From NCBI GenBank assembly GCA_913757435.1, contig CAJYDM010000003.1, positions 1-64,000 of the forward strand: a stretch of 64,000 nucleotides of DNA. Reading direction: 5' to 3'. This document shows, piece by piece, positions 9,585-35,883 of the stretch. The notes beneath the pieces were generated by a model, which saw nothing but the letters and a program-made list of their open reading frames with translations, was not told the DNA's origin and did not search any database. Within the stretch, counting starts at the first letter, position 1. Every line of letters begins with the position of its first letter. This DNA is from Syntrophomonas sp. DTU019. GTDB lineage: Bacteria; Bacillota; Syntrophomonadia; Syntrophomonadales; Syntrophomonadaceae. A program made the position numbers and the translations under genes.

Positions 9585-9947
<363 letters not shown>

Positions 9948-9949
<2 letters not shown>

Positions 9950-10101
9950 CAGATGGTGACAGATGATGACATATGATGACAGATGGGGTGACAGATGGTG
10001 ACAGATGATGACAGATGATGACAGATGGGGTGACAGATGGGGACGGTCCTTTTTTGTCAACGGTTAAGTTGACAAAAAAGGACCGTCCCCATCTGTCACC
10101 C
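9948..10101. repeat. GACAGATGG tandem tract plus 34-bp perfect inverted repeat
   Basis: Short direct repeats of (G)GACAGATG(G/A)T fill 9948-10027. A perfect inverted repeat follows (arms 10028-10061 and 10068-10101, 6-base loop) with the core GGGGACGGTCC. It belongs to the dispersed palindrome family found across the window. Confidence 0.85.
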
Positions 10102-16627: not shown

Positions 16628-17966
16628 TATTATTGGGAAGTTAAAAAACAAGGTGTTATCCGGTGTATATACGGATACAGACTTTGCCGCCCAGAAGATA
16701 ATGCAGCTTGCGGACCGCTACCGTTCAATTATCGACAGCCAATCTGATTTGATTTGCAGATTCGCATCTGATGGCACGATTACTTTTGCCAATGCAGCTT
16801 TTTGTGATTATTTCCATAAGGAGCAGGAAGAAATCTTAGGTATTAATGTTATGTCACTGCTGAACAAGAGTCGGGATGAATTATCCAGGCTGGTGGGAAC
16901 TTTGGACAACAAACCTTCTGTGACTGAACTGCGGTGCGATAATAAGGGCTCCAGTGGGGAAATAAACTGGTGCCGTTTCATTTATACCAAAGTCTCTGAT
17001 TCGGTCATAAAGGAAATACAGCTTATAGGTCATAAGGTGGATTGGGAAATAATGGGCGTTTCCTTGGACATGCACCACATTGAAAAGGCTGATCATATCG
17101 ATGAGGCGCACGGTATTGAAGAGATTAATCATATCGATGAGGCGCGCGGTATTGATAAGGTTGATTATATCGATGAGGCGCGCGGTATTGAAGAGATTGA
17201 TCATATCGGTGAGGCACACGGTATTGATAAGTTTGATCATATCGATGAGGCGCAAAAATTTAGCAACAACCCAGAGGCCGAATCTGAAGTATTTGAAGGA
17301 AACGTCTATGATATGGTTAGTTGGCCTGTAGTGGTGTTGGAGCCTGATTTGACAATATGCAGCTGTAATAAGATGTTTGCGGCCTTTTCCGGTTATTCGC
17401 GGGATGAAGCCATCGGTCAGGAACTGTTCTCTATTCTCGTTCTGCCGGATTTCTTGGAAATGCTGTCATACAGCGAATTGGCCAAGAAACCAGGTGATGC
17501 TGAACTTCAATGCGTTGACCGGTTTGGCAATATTCGTGACGTTATCATAAACACTTCCCGCCTTAGAAAAGATGGCAAGCTGGTTTTGTCATTTGTGGAT
17601 GTTACCAAGAAATATGTTGATAATGATTTGATTAAAACCCTTAATAATGAGTCTATTATTGTGATTTGTAAGATTACTGGTACTGTCTTGGCCATAAATC
17701 GCAACTGTGAAAATGCTACCGGTCTTTACTGCGAACAGGTCAAAGGTATGAAGTATTGGGATGCTCTCTGCCTCGAAAGTGAAAGAAAGATTACTCAGCA
17801 TATATTCAAGAATATCGTTGTTGATAAGGGGATGATAGAATCCAAACAGAACTGGAAAACTGCTACCGGAAGAGCACAAGCAATGGAACTGAAGAATTTT
17901 GCGCTGCTTGATCTGAATGGTAATATCGAGTACATTGTCATAGCCGGTAAAGTAGCGATCGATTAG
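16620..17966 (+). CDS. Triple-PAS protein with a 12-residue repeat linker
   Basis: 448 aa. PAS1 is at about residues 30-140 (Q-S-D-L-I-C-R-F-A-S-D-G-T-I-T-F), PAS2 at about 225-340 (P-V-V-V-L-E-P-D-L-T-I-C) and PAS3 at about 345-445 (E-S-I-I-V-I-C-K-I-T-G-T-V-L). There is no output domain. PAS1 and PAS2 are joined by about 4.5 copies of a 12-residue repeat (H-I-D-E-A-x-G-I-E/D-x-I/V/F-D) that is probably helical and charged. The start overlaps the end of the HD-GYP gene with RBS AAAAAGGAG, so it may be a dedicated partner of that protein. An alternative role is as a regulator of the ATPase that follows. Confidence 0.8.
   Translation: MRNIIGKLKNKVLSGVYTDTDFAAQKIMQLADRYRSIIDSQSDLICRFASDGTITFANAAFCDYFHKEQEEILGINVMSLLNKSRDELSRLVGTLDNKPSVTELRCDNKGSSGEINWCRFIYTKVSDSVIKEIQLIGHKVDWEIMGVSLDMHHIEKADHIDEAHGIEEINHIDEARGIDKVDYIDEARGIEEIDHIGEAHGIDKFDHIDEAQKFSNNPEAESEVFEGNVYDMVSWPVVVLEPDLTICSCNKMFAAFSGYSRDEAIGQELFSILVLPDFLEMLSYSELAKKPGDAELQCVDRFGNIRDVIINTSRLRKDGKLVLSFVDVTKKYVDNDLIKTLNNESIIVICKITGTVLAINRNCENATGLYCEQVKGMKYWDALCLESERKITQHIFKNIVVDKGMIESKQNWKTATGRAQAMELKNFALLDLNGNIEYIVIAGKVAID
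17091..17252 (+). repeat. 36-bp in-frame tandem repeat, about 4.5 copies
   Basis: Units begin at 17091, 17127, 17163, 17199 and 17235 (partial), each starting (G/A)AT(C/T)ATATCG(A/G)TGAGGC. They encode 12-residue repeats between two PAS domains. Units differ by a few bases. Confidence 0.9.
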
Positions 17967-18094: not shown

Positions 18095-18832
18095 ATGGCA
18101 ATCATTATTAAACGCCTTCACTCTATAAATGCACTAGGCCATTTGCAATCCGATCAAGAATCCTTCTGTCCTTATATGGATTTAAAAAGCAGAACCGTTA
18201 TCACTGGTTTTTCCCAAAGCGGCAAAACTGCCTTGACTAGACTTTTCAGAGTCTTGGAGCACCGGGATAGTCTAAGCGAATTCCCGGGGGCTGAATATGT
18301 ATTTGAGTTGTCTGATGGAACCCTGGTCAACCAGTCGGCTGATTTAATTCCCCGTATAAGTGTCAAGGTGTTTAATGAGCAGTTCGTTGCTGAGCATATA
18401 AGCTGGGACGAAACAGACCATACCTTTACCTTGAAGGAATCAATCGACATCGATTTGTTTAATGAAAAGATGAGGTTTTTTTCGGGGTGCCAGGATATCA
18501 AGGTGTATCGTGACAAATGGGGTTTTAAATACTGGATTGGAAACGATGCCACCACCGGTGCAACCAAAGCCAGTTTGGAACGGCATCCTTTGGATGTGAT
18601 TAACAAGACCGCCATAGCATTCGTATATTTTGCGGTAAGGTTGCATCAACAGGATATTATTGAAGACAGCGTTATTGTAATTGACGATCTGATCAACCCC
18701 CGGCATTTGGCCAATGTATTTGCCGCTTACCGGTTTGTGAAGGAAGAATTCTGGAACGCCGCCCAGTTGATTATTTTCGCTCATTATCCACTATTCTACA
18801 AACTGATCCTAAATTGGTTCGAAAAAGAGTGA
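18095..18832 (+). CDS. Miniature AAA_13 (RloC/PrrC-type) ATPase-like protein
   Basis: 245 aa. The Walker A motif G-F-S-Q-S-G-K-T (residues 38-45) is followed by A-L-T-R-L-F-R-V-L-E, as in AAA_13 ABC-type ATPases. Other AAA_13 landmarks are V-K-V-F-N-E-Q-F-V, K-T-A-I-A-F-V-Y-F, Walker B V-I-V-I-D-D, and a C-terminal I-I-F-A-H-Y-P-L-F-Y. Two departures stand out: the long coiled-coil insert normally between the two halves is cut to about 100 residues, and the LSxGE signature before K-T-A-I-A-F is replaced by P-L-D-V-I-N. The D-loop and switch His region (S-S-L-D, T-H) are also changed. ATP binding seems likely; hydrolysis is doubtful. The stop codon lies in the first bases of a dispersed repeat. 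The RBS (GAGGAGG, 18070s) is rather far from the ATG. Confidence 0.7.
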   Translation: MAIIIKRLHSINALGHLQSDQESFCPYMDLKSRTVITGFSQSGKTALTRLFRVLEHRDSLSEFPGAEYVFELSDGTLVNQSADLIPRISVKVFNEQFVAEHISWDETDHTFTLKESIDIDLFNEKMRFFSGCQDIKVYRDKWGFKYWIGNDATTGATKASLERHPLDVINKTAIAFVYFAVRLHQQDIIEDSVIVIDDLINPRHLANVFAAYRFVKEEFWNAAQLIIFAHYPLFYKLILNWFEKE

Positions 18833-18917
18833 CAGATGGGGGTGACAGATGGGGACGGTCCTTTTTTGTCTACTTTGAAAAAGTTGACAAAAAAAAAGGA
18901 CCGTCCTCATCTGTCAC
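18829..18917. repeat. Dispersed palindrome, GACAGATGGGGACGGTCC type
   Basis: Arms run from 18842 to 18870 and from 18886 to 18917 with a GGGGACGGTCC core. It is a near copy of the palindrome at 10028-10101 and includes the stop codon of the preceding gene. Confidence 0.85.
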
Positions 18918-21066: not shown

Positions 21067-22176
21067 TTGAAAATACTTGTTACCGGTGCTAATGGGTTTG
21101 TGGGCAGGAATATCATAGCTGAATTGCGCAACCGGGGTTACAGCGATATCTATCCCTTTGACCTGGATACTGATCCTGCCCTGCTGGACAGATATACCGG
21201 GGATTGTGAGTTCGTATTCCACCTGGCCGGGGTCAACCGCCCGTCAGAGACCTGGGAGTTCATGGCGGGAAATCGCGGTTTTACCGCACAGTTGTTGAAT
21301 TCGCTGAAGAATAACCGTAACCCCTGCCCGGTTTTGATGAGCTCATCTATACAGGCTAGACTCGACAACCCTTACGGTCAGAGCAAGAAGGCCGGCGAAG
21401 ACCTGCTGTTCGCTTATGGCCAGGCCAGCGGGGCTAGAGTCCTTATATATCGCCTCCCAAATGTTTTCGGCAAATGGTGCCGCCCCAATTATAACAGCGC
21501 GGTGGCTACGTTCTGCCACAATATCGCCCGTGATCTTCCTATTACAGTGAATGACCCTGGGGTGGTATTGAACCTGGTTTACATAGACGATGTGGTCGAT
21601 GAGTTTATAAAGGCATTGAGCGGCAATGAGACCAGGCACGGGGATTTCTGCTCGGTGCCGACCGTTTATACCGTCAAACTGGGAGAGATTGCGGAACTGA
21701 TATATTCATTTAAGAAGAGCCGCAAAGATCTTGCTATTCCTAATATGGCCGATGGCTTCACCAAAAAACTCTATGCCACTTACCTGAGCTACTTGCCGAT
21801 TGATCAGTTCAGCTATCCGCTAAAGATGAACGTTGATGATCGCGGCAGCTTCACTGAGATGATACGCACCCCGGATAGAGGTCAGGTGTCGGTCAACATA
21901 AGCAGGCCGGGGATTACTAAGGGCAATCACTGGCACCACACCAAGAATGAGAAGTTTCTGGTGGTCAGCGGGACCGGGGTAATTCGTTTCCGCAAAGTGG
22001 ACTCCTCTGAGGTTATTGAGTATAGGGTCAGCGGGGAAAAGCTAGAGGTAGTGGATATCCCGCCGGGCTACACCCACAATATCGAGAACCTGGGCGACAC
22101 GGATATGGTGACTATTATGTGGGCTAATGAGCCGTTTGATCCGGAGAGGCCGGATACGTACTTTTTGGGGGTTTAA
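21067..22176 (+). CDS. capF: CapF: SDR-cupin bifunctional enzyme of UDP-L-FucNAc synthesis
   Basis: 369 aa, the same length as Staphylococcus CapF. The N-terminal Rossmann domain (V-T-G-A-N-G-F-V-G-R-N) reduces the C4 keto group. The C-terminal cupin (from about residue 255) has G-N-H-W-H-H-T-K-N-E-K-F, the metal-binding His/Glu cluster of the epimerase domain. The start is TTG at 21067, with GGAGG at 21054-21058, two bases after the capE stop. Its stop codon lies in the first heptad of the phased repeat array that separates it from capG. Confidence 0.92.
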   Translation: MKILVTGANGFVGRNIIAELRNRGYSDIYPFDLDTDPALLDRYTGDCEFVFHLAGVNRPSETWEFMAGNRGFTAQLLNSLKNNRNPCPVLMSSSIQARLDNPYGQSKKAGEDLLFAYGQASGARVLIYRLPNVFGKWCRPNYNSAVATFCHNIARDLPITVNDPGVVLNLVYIDDVVDEFIKALSGNETRHGDFCSVPTVYTVKLGEIAELIYSFKKSRKDLAIPNMADGFTKKLYATYLSYLPIDQFSYPLKMNVDDRGSFTEMIRTPDRGQVSVNISRPGITKGNHWHHTKNEKFLVVSGTGVIRFRKVDSSEVIEYRVSGEKLEVVDIPPGYTHNIENLGDTDMVTIMWANEPFDPERPDTYFLGV

Positions 22177-22271
22177 CAGTGGTTGAACGGTAGTTTAACA
22201 TGGTTTAACATGGTTAAACCATGGTTAAACAACATTAAACAACCGTTAAACAATGTTAAACCACGTTAAAC
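22171..22271. repeat. Helically phased array of ten GTTTAAC/GTTAAAC heptads
   Basis: Heptads begin at 22171, 22182, 22193, 22203, 22213, 22224, 22234, 22245, 22255 and 22265, a mean step of 10.4 bp. The first four read GTTTAAC (one GTTGAAC) and the last six GTTAAAC (one ATTAAAC), the reverse complement, so the whole array is also an inverted repeat. It fills the capF-capG gap. Confidence 0.9.
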
Positions 22272-22307
22272 CATATTGGACCATGTTTTAAGCGGGAGGT
22301 TGTCTTA

Positions 22308-23432
22308 ATGCATAAATTACGACTGATGACCATAATAGGAACCAGGCCAGAGATCATCCGCCTGTCCGAGGTTATTAAGAAAGCGGATAAGTATTTCGAG
22401 CATGTGCTGGTGCATACCGGGCAGAATTGGGATTATACCCTCAACCAGATTTTTTTCAAAGATTTGGGCTTGAGGGAACCGGATCATTACCTGGACGCGG
22501 TGGGCGAGGATCTGGGTGAGACCATTGGAAACATCATTGCGAGGAGCTACCGGCTGATAGGTGATGTGAAGCCTGATGCCCTATTGATATTGGGTGATAC
22601 CAACTCGGCATTGTCAGCCATAGCCGCCAAGAGGCTGAAGGTGCCGATTTTCCATATGGAGGCCGGTAACCGTTGTTTTGACGAGAATCTGCCCGAGGAG
22701 ACCAATCGGCGCATCGTTGATCATATTGCCGATGTGAATTTGTGCTATAGCGAGCATGCCCGGCGCTATTTGAATTATGAGGGAGTGGCTAAGGAGCGGA
22801 CTTTTGTGACCGGCTCTCCGATGGCCGAGGTGTTAAACGCCAATATAGATAAGATTTTACACAGCAAGATCTTGGATGATTTGGGATTGGAACCAGGCCG
22901 CTACATCCTGCTCTCTGCTCACCGGGAGGAGAATATCGACCTGGAGAAAAACTTTTTTGCTCTGATGGAGGCAGTTAATGCCATGGCCGAAAAATATGAT
23001 ATGCCAGTCATCTACAGCACCCATCCCCGCAGCGCAAAATTCATCGAGCAGCGCCAGTTTAAATTCCACCCTCTGGTAAAAAGTCTAAAGCCTTTCGGTT
23101 TTTCTGATTACAACCACCTGCAGCTGCATGCTTTCTGTGTAGTATCAGACAGCGGGACCCTGCCGGAGGAAGCCTCATATTTCAAGTTCCCGGCGGTGTG
23201 TGTGCGCACCAGCACCGAGCGCCCCGAGGCCTTGGATAAGGGGAATTTTGTATTGGGTGGTTTGAGCGCGGTCGAATTACTGCAAGCCGTGGATCTGGCA
23301 GTTGCCACAGGCCAGAACGGTGACCTGGGAGCAGATGTCCCCGACTATGTGGACGAAAATGTCAGCACCAAGGTGGTTAAGATAATTCAAGGCTATACGG
23401 GGATCGTTAATCGCAGGGTTTGGGGGAAGTAG
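22308..23432 (+). CDS. capG: UDP-N-acetylglucosamine 2-epimerase family (CapG/FnlC type)
   Basis: 374 aa, the length of CapG. Non-hydrolysing UDP-GlcNAc 2-epimerase fold, with T-I-I-G-T-R-P-E-I-I-R at the N-terminus, H-T-G-Q-N-W-D, H-M-E-A-G-N-R, E-E-T-N-R-R-I-V-D, S-A-H-R-E-E-N and D-S-G-T-L-P-E-E in order. In the capEFG context it makes UDP-L-FucNAc from UDP-L-PneNAc by C2 epimerisation. RBS GGGAGG lies before ATG 22308. The product is a capsule or surface-glycan precursor. Confidence 0.92.
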   Translation: MHKLRLMTIIGTRPEIIRLSEVIKKADKYFEHVLVHTGQNWDYTLNQIFFKDLGLREPDHYLDAVGEDLGETIGNIIARSYRLIGDVKPDALLILGDTNSALSAIAAKRLKVPIFHMEAGNRCFDENLPEETNRRIVDHIADVNLCYSEHARRYLNYEGVAKERTFVTGSPMAEVLNANIDKILHSKILDDLGLEPGRYILLSAHREENIDLEKNFFALMEAVNAMAEKYDMPVIYSTHPRSAKFIEQRQFKFHPLVKSLKPFGFSDYNHLQLHAFCVVSDSGTLPEEASYFKFPAVCVRTSTERPEALDKGNFVLGGLSAVELLQAVDLAVATGQNGDLGADVPDYVDENVSTKVVKIIQGYTGIVNRRVWGK

Positions 23433-30878: not shown

Positions 30879-30889
30879 ATGTATCAGGA

Positions 30890-30970
30890 GAAAAGGCAAA
30901 CTCGCCGAAAGGCGGGGACGCAAAGCCACGGGTCTAAAGACGCCAGGTCAATGATAGCCGGGTTGCCAGG
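30890..30970 (+). ncRNA. Cyclic-di-GMP-I (GEMM) riboswitch, first copy
   Basis: AAAAGGCAAACTCGCCGAAA, then GGGGACGCAAAGCCACGGG, then AGCCGGGTTGCC match the conserved parts of the class I c-di-GMP riboswitch: the GGCAAAC strand, the GNRA tetraloop stem, the GACGCAAAGCCA joining region with the ligand pocket, and the closing strand. A strong terminator follows at 30995. Confidence 0.88.
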
Positions 30971-30994
30971 AATAAGTGTTCTTGAGGATATTTG

Positions 30995-31027
30995 ATCTGC
31001 TTGGCATCCAGCTTAAGCAGATTTTTT
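30995..31027 (+). terminator. Terminator/expression platform of the first riboswitch
   Basis: ATCTGCTT (30995-31002) pairs perfectly with AAGCAGAT (31015-31022), followed by six Ts. This is a likely ligand-controlled terminator. Confidence 0.75.
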
Positions 31028-31073
31028 AATTTAATACTGGTCAGGACGGCGGGGCCTTAAAGCCCCTCACCGA

Positions 31074-31150
31074 TAAAGGCAAACTCGCCGAAAGGCGAGG
31101 ACGCAAAGCCATGGGTCTACTGACGCAAGTCTATGATCGCCAGGCCGCCG
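31074..31150 (+). ncRNA. Cyclic-di-GMP-I (GEMM) riboswitch, second copy
   Basis: It repeats the conserved parts of the first copy (AAAGGCAAACTCGCCGAAA, GAGGACGCAAAGCCATGGG) with an altered closing strand (CGCCAGGCCGCC). A weak stem with a six-T run (31158-31176) follows, so it may have its own terminator. The transglutaminase ATG is about 70 bp downstream. Confidence 0.85.
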
Positions 31151-31218
31151 AAGAAGAGGATTTAAGTATCCGCCTTTTTTATACGGTCCGTCCTTAATGA
31201 CAAAGGAGGACCTGCATA

Positions 31219-34118: not shown

Positions 34119-34257
34119 CCTTTATCAGGTTGGTGGCGTATAGGAGGGGATGCGATGAAGCGTGTTTTTATGTGGGCACTTTAGACACGATGGAGCAAGT
34201 AGTGCAACCGGCCTTTTCTTTATTTACATAGGGCAAATGAAGAGAGGAGCGATAATA

Positions 34258-35883
34258 ATGTCAAAGAAGTTTTTTAAACAACTTGAGAACAAGCAAAAGA
34301 ACTGGGAAAAGAACCAGGCCAGAAAACGTAAGCTAATAACGCACTTTTTGCTGGGCTCATTGGTTGTGAGCAGAGTATTTGTGCCTGGTATAGCCGCTGC
34401 GGATAATGATAAACACGATTTCAATAGTCCTGCTGCGGTATACAGCTCTATGATGGACTCTGACGATGGCTTGGATGACGACACCGACGCAGACGCCGAT
34501 GCTGACGCAGATGCTGACGCAGACGCTGATGCTGACGCAGATGCAGACGCTGACGCAGATGCGGATGCAGACGACGATGGTGATGCGTTTACTTTTATGA
34601 AGATGTCAGCAGGTACAATGGATGTGCTTTCAGGCGGCGATGTAGCGAATCTGGAAAAAGGCGAGATTTTTGTAATTAAACAAGCACAGGGTGTTCTGAT
34701 TTGGATAGAAAATGAGCCGGCAGACCTTGCCGAGCTGATTCAGTTCGTGAATGATAATGACCCCTCATCCGTCGGCAGAATGATAGAAGTAGTATCTGGA
34801 CCTGGAACGTTTTACTTAAAAGATTACTTTGAAGGAAATCCATATAAGGAGACATCGATTACCGTAACTGCGTCTGGCGATGGATTTTCGATAGAAGTAT
34901 TCGGAGATTATAGTCATTTTGAAGACTATGACTATGATGACGGAGACGCCGACGCGGATTGCGATGCCGACGCCGATTGTGACGCCGACGCGGATTGCGA
35001 TGCCGACGCCGATTGTGACGCCGACGCGGATTGCGATGCCGACGCTGACGCCGATGCCGATGCTGACGCAGACGCTGACGCCGATGCCGATGCTGACGCC
35101 GATGCTGACGCTGATGCTGACGCCGATGCTGACGCCGATGCCGATGCTGACGCTGACGCCGATGCTGACGCAGATGCCGATGCCGACGCCGACGCTGACG
35201 CTGACGCCGATGCTGACGCTGACGCCGATGCTGACGCAGATGCCGATGCCGACGCCGATGCTGACGCCGATGCTGACGCCGACGCTGACGCAGATGCCGA
35301 TGCCGACGCCGATGCTGACGCCGATGCTGACGCCGATGCTGACGCCGATGCCGATGCTGACGCTGACGCCGATGCTGACGCAGATGCCGATGCCGACGCC
35401 GACGCTGACGCTGACGCCGATGCTGACGCTGACGCCGATGCTGACGCAGATGCCGATGCTGACGCCGATGCTGACGCCGATGCTGACGCCGACGCTGACG
35501 CAGATGCCGACGCTGACGCCGACAGTGACTCAGATTCTGACAGCGATTCCGACTCCGACTCCGACAGCGACTCTGATTCAGATAGCGACAGCGATTCCGA
35601 CTCCGACAGTGACTCCGACTCAGACAGTGACAGTGATGCCGATGCCGACGCAGACGCCGATGCCGACGCCGACGCTGATGCCGACGCCGACGCTGACGCA
35701 GATGCCGATGCAGATACTGATGTCGATACGGATATCGATATAGTGGATGAGGAAGTGCCCTTGGGCGATTTGGATCCCGAGTTGCCGAAAACAGGAGGTG
35801 CGGTCAGTTTACTCTCTTTGGCCGGACTGGGGATGCTTCTCTCCGGACTGGGATTGAGAAGAAAAGCTGATAAGAAAGAATAG
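34258..35883 (+). CDS. LPXTG surface protein with Asp-Ala and Ser-Asp dipeptide repeats
   Basis: 541 aa. An N-terminal signal segment ([15 protein letters not shown]) is followed by a first (Asp-Ala)n run, a folded domain of about 110 residues (from [11 protein letters not shown] to F-G-D-Y-S-H-F), and a very long (Asp-Ala)n run. The long run opens with five Cys at six-residue steps (D-A-D-C-D-A) and includes a (Ser-Asp)n block near its end. The C-terminus has L-P-K-T-G (35782-35796), a hydrophobic helix and R-R-K-A-D-K-K-E, a complete sortase signal. The stalk would be strongly acidic, as in Clf/Sdr proteins, and may bind Ca2+. ATG 34258 has AGAGGAG upstream. The likely sortase is at 41405. 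Confidence 0.9.
34477..34575 (+). repeat. First (Asp-Ala) GAYGCN hexamer repeat tract
   Basis: An in-frame run of GA(C/T)GC(N) hexamers encoding alternating Asp and Ala. Confidence 0.9.
34945..35725 (+). repeat. Long GAYGCN/AGYGAY hexamer tract with a 210-bp higher-order repeat
   Basis: About 780 bp of hexamers encode (Asp-Ala)n with a Ser-Asp block at 35521-35636. 35131-35300 recurs at 35341-35510, offset exactly 210 bp (70 codons), with one mismatch seen. The +2-frame open reading frame across it is a repeat artefact. Confidence 0.9.

Follow-up and report, generated by a model that had tools for sequence, protein, structure and literature searches.

REP elements and BIMEs are dispersed palindromic units of 20-40 bp, inverted with respect to one another and located in transcribed intergenic DNA. 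PHO boxes, the direct repeats of PhoB/PhoP, proceed at an 11-bp step made up of seven conserved and four variable bases and are rich in GTT. MIRUs, the mycobacterial interspersed repetitive units, are tandem repeats that lie between co-directional genes and meet their stop and start codons, vary in copy number and are absent from relatives with tight junctions, as at rnc-fpg (PMC2734929); insertion of a MIRU at a start codon has also been described (PMC12548453). In the 64,000-nucleotide stretch of DNA analysed here (the window), the junction between a capF-like and a capG-like gene holds an array of short palindromic heptads that is probably one copy of a dispersed intergenic repeat family at operon junctions. 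The family is apparently undescribed: an earlier note on this DNA knew of no element like it, and the paper library, searched under the heptad sequences and the genus name, likewise returned no description of such arrays.

That note had read ten heptads at the starts listed in Table 1, with steps of 11, 11, 10, 10, 11, 10, 11, 10 and 10 bp (mean 10.44), inside an operon and with the capF stop codon within the first unit, all of which the sequence bears out (22171-22271; stop TAA at 22174-22176). Its division into four GTTTAAC followed by six GTTAAAC heptads is close, in that eight of the ten are exact GTTWAAC, the exceptions being unit 2 (GTTGAAC) and unit 7 (ATTAAAC). The large inverted repeat that it described is right as an account of the organisation but partly automatic, because GTTNAAC self-pairs; the real asymmetry resides in the spacers, which are of RRTR type in the 5' half (F units) and of YAYY type in the 3' half (R units), the switch being the CATG spacer after heptad 22213 and the later spacers AAC, AACC, AAT and CAC. 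Eight consecutive exact heptads at 10/11-bp steps have an expectation of about 1e-22 per 64 kb, and in 20 shuffles the detector picked up no array; chance is excluded. The window's genome contains this one array only, as judged by a pattern search for three 11-bp units with up to two mismatches. An exact 18-mer contig scan recovered one true relative, along with two short matches taken as chance, and no plasmid relatives of the junction were found. Rfam covariance models gave no match at 22171-22271, and no convincing promoter was seen at the array, which is overlapped by one weak promoter-like match. The sequence GCGGGAGGTT is found in the congeneric genome G001 too, behind the orthologous array.

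Table 1. Features of the capF-capG junction in the window, and loci of an array-flanked gene in other genomes
Feature	Position	Strand	Details
capF-like gene (epimerase + Polysacc_synt_C)	21067..22176	+	
5' (F) part of array	22171..22212	+	heptads 22171, 22182, 22193, 22203; spacers AGTG, GGTA, ATG, ATG
3' (R) part of array	22213..22271	+	heptads 22213, 22224, 22234 (ATTAAAC), 22245, 22255, 22265
Two decayed units in register	22272..22291	+	ATTGGAC 22275, GTTTTAA 22285; sequence reading
Probable capG ribosome-binding site GCGGGAGG	22292..22299	+	inferred from position
capG-like UDP-GlcNAc 2-epimerase	22308..23432	+	start at 22308
S23-type gene with arrays on both sides	L029 5451-5902; L339 3778-4229		shared by distant genomes

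Other repetitive features occur elsewhere in the window. A 10-bp TGACAGATGG tandem repeat runs into a REP-like inverted repeat (GGGGACGGTCC...GGACCGTCCCC) at 9947-10044 and 18829-18854, a 36-bp tandem repeat lies within a long ORF at 17079-17254, where both strands are open (overlapping ORFs), and a long GAYGCN repeat region at 34945-35740 is a coding repeat of Asp/Ala type. An Rfam search located two tandem c-di-GMP-I riboswitches and one c-di-GMP-II riboswitch (30885-31153 and 34139-34222).

A search of the genome and its relatives for GTT-type arrays, as the earlier note had suggested, recovered arrays of 11-bp period in scattered syntrophic and related bacteria. Within the family, GTTNAAC-N4-GTTNAAC is found mainly in Syntrophomonas (G023, G036, G072) and the window's genus (G000, G001), with a few instances in G011 and G074; the unit is shared by three genera of the family. 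Only seven of 398 genomes of the phylum have three exact units in register; the distant G104, G155 and G214 are among them, and G214 gave 123 hits. Reversed-pattern controls were near zero in both the family and the phylum searches, and genomes broken into contigs undercount arrays. In G155 (L340-L346) several arrays lie within longer dispersed repeats ending CGTTACCGTGGCCAATTAGG.

From 334 eleven-bp units the family consensus is GTT-D-AAC-RRTR or its reverse complement; in the genome searches the core is GTTNAAC, its centre position being free. Array detection ignored the spacers, and 281 of the 334 are RRTR or YAYY (6% expected); once units are oriented by spacer, 99% carry T at position 10. 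The units, palindromic and found in either orientation, lie in intergenic DNA; within mixed-type arrays F precedes R at 21 switches and follows it at two. Among spacers of neither type RATY is the most frequent, which is what a dyad centre would predict. Stop codons occur in most heptads, the detector being one that favours intact heptads. Between cleanly aligned orthologous arrays, differences number 39 of 539 at the outer heptad bases, 46 of 263 in the spacers and 32 of 90 at the centres. The slower change of the outer bases retains a p value of 0.03 after thinning, and its strength is modest because rows overlap between pairs; the pattern is more regular than simple neutral decay would give.

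The arrays sit at the junctions of cap genes, spoVB-mazG, murT-gatD, fliL-fliM, hemL-cheR, pcrA-ligA, rplQ-ecfA, pyrG-femX, uvrA-uvrC and others, flanking genes being ORF-based and their names read from sequence, with only some checked against Pfam. By the ORF rule 37 of 39 array junctions are co-directional, and 38 of 39 after hand correction of fliL-fliM, where a spurious ORF lies over fliL; other junctions are co-directional in 226 of 272 cases (83%; Fisher p 0.016). This excess is modest because the genomes are strongly operonic, and the flanking genes are probably co-transcribed. In 23 of 37 cases no more than 20 bp separate the array start from the upstream stop codon, and some arrays encode the last residues of the upstream protein (...TMVEQ* in hemL; ...LRTIVKQ* in G104).

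Arrays come and go between close relatives. The same-genus genome G003 has a tight capF-capG junction without an array, whereas in G001 the array at this junction is longer and more degenerate than that of the window and further cap junctions carry arrays too; capE and capF are 2 bp apart in G000 but separated by about 300 bp, array included, in G001. At 16 orthologous junctions compared among three Syntrophomonas, the number of species with an array ranges from one to three, and unit and copy number differ between the arrays of close relatives. The earlier note would have counted a relative with an unrelated capFG gap against its reading, and G003, array-free at this junction, is such a relative. 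As arrays also occur in many unrelated operons and are optional at housekeeping operons, a locus-specific regulatory role, capG included, is unlikely.

The same Syntrophomonas junctions also hold other repeats, namely GGAAGACGGA, GTGAGGGGTGAGG and an element of about 300 bp ending TTTTTGCAGTGGAGTC, which at the gatD junction lies inside an array. Operon junctions in G036 (L107, L109, L111, L115, L120) and other genomes contain an inverted-end element of about 300 bp and short GGAAGACGGA / GTGAGGGG repeats. A gene for a 23S-rRNA-intervening-sequence-type protein (S23-type, PF05635) is flanked by arrays on both sides in genomes of distant families; the G023 and G104 copies are 79.7% identical over 453 bp, both array ends included. 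This likeness suggests transfer, judging from sequence comparison, possibly as an array-gene-array cassette. As to an enzyme of movement, the array-rich G001 has no Y1_Tnp gene and no array flanks ten Y1_Tnp loci in other genomes; a REP transposase was rejected as the mover on this lack of association.

The earlier note had placed all heptads on one DNA face. Syntrophomonas arrays, however, keep to 11.0 bp in 106 of 108 steps, and over 14 units they fall 6.5 bp out of register with a helix of 10.5 bp; helical phasing was therefore rejected as the principle behind the arrays. A mean of 10.4 bp is peculiar to the window copy, in which 91 of 126 orderings of its own steps lie as near 10.5n as the actual order. 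As for bending, T3A2 tracts belong to the TnAn class, in which curvature is slight.

A repressor, roadblock or nucleoid protein might use the arrays as landing strips, covering successive GTTNAAC palindromes, as the free-centred palindromic core, the strict 11-bp step in Syntrophomonas, the slowly changing outer bases and the F-before-R polarity with RATY at the switch would lead one to expect. Against this, an orthologous junction of an essential operon may carry an array or lack it, and the arrays share no common regulon, lie inside operons away from promoters, and take steps of 11.0 bp or a 10/11 mixture, not a single helical repeat; we regard such a role as unlikely. Quite unlikely, too, is a specific form of this idea, an undescribed array-coating protein, patchy in Bacillota and perhaps related to the reader of the phage repeats described below, that would shape transcription, replication or recombination.

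At the RNA level, hairpins after the stop codon could uncouple or adjust translation or stabilise the upstream mRNA. The RNA stems foreseen in the earlier note do form, between probably co-transcribed genes, with z scores of -3.1 for the window array and -4 to -6 for some others, but shuffles of unit order fold equally well (window z +0.36; most arrays near 0), and the hairpin as a selected feature was rejected on this ground. For several long arrays, folding does not exceed that of dinucleotide shuffles, and the window array has no intrinsic terminator (GC-rich stem plus T run), leaving this reading very unlikely. Plain minisatellite decay, with tandem repeats born locally and lacking common origin or constraint, would suit the differing unit numbers of orthologues and the recently expanded look of the 14-unit spoVB-mazG array in G023, but a single consensus, spacers included, unites dozens of unrelated loci from several families, an outcome that independent local birth cannot produce, which makes this reading highly improbable.

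The optional presence of the arrays, the failure of one-face phasing and the order-independent folding together favour a dispersed repeat. Its arrays, F units with R units behind them, occupy junctions of co-directional genes that are probably transcribed together, and they usually begin at or supply the upstream stop. Under this preferred reading, copies may spread by horizontal transfer and by recombination between arrays, and would lengthen or shorten by unit slippage. Operons presumably tolerate them between their genes because stop codons occur in most heptads, no promoter is disrupted and the gene downstream retains a ribosome-binding site; hairpins would be a by-product of self-complementary heptads. 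One odd gap has thereby led to a family of repeats that settle where operon genes meet, provide stop codons and differ from one sister species to the next. As S. wolfei can be cultivated, the family offers a tractable case of how DNA is gained and lost between co-transcribed genes while the operon stays intact. With its regular unit and fixed dyad order it calls for either a protein that reads the arrays or a mechanism that copies them, and each would be new.

Among known systems, similar repeats appear in phage contigs, where GTTNAAC recurs at 11-bp steps, as in the chromosomal arrays, in at least 120 contigs versus 42 with the reversed pattern and seven at a 13-bp step. In the phages, unlike the chromosomes, the repeats lie inside ORFs, the spacers are GC-rich (GCCC, GGTC, GACC) and the centre is C/G; two ORFs were tested and both match DUF1376 (PF07120). 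In the IMG/VR contigs L136-L215, three to nine units with GC-rich spacers occupy the middle of a phage ORF. These repeats may be the iterons of a phage's origin, placed inside its initiator-like gene. The 7+4 unit, 11-bp step and GTT-rich sequence of the arrays recall PHO boxes; a PHO-box regulon was rejected, as the arrays surveyed lie at junctions of unrelated housekeeping operons and not at the promoters of a regulon. The arrays resemble REP/BIMEs in being intergenic and in combining palindromic units of either orientation, but their unit is about 11 bp and they have no link to the REP-associated transposase (Y1_Tnp). Like MIRUs, they lie between co-directional genes at stop/start junctions and vary in copy number between close relatives, but a MIRU unit is 40-100 bp with a small coupled ORF, whereas the array unit is 11 bp, palindromic and stop-rich. 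The unit length, the absent ORF and the absent transposase link therefore place the arrays outside both groups; in behaviour they are nearest to MIRUs and in form to REP/BIMEs.
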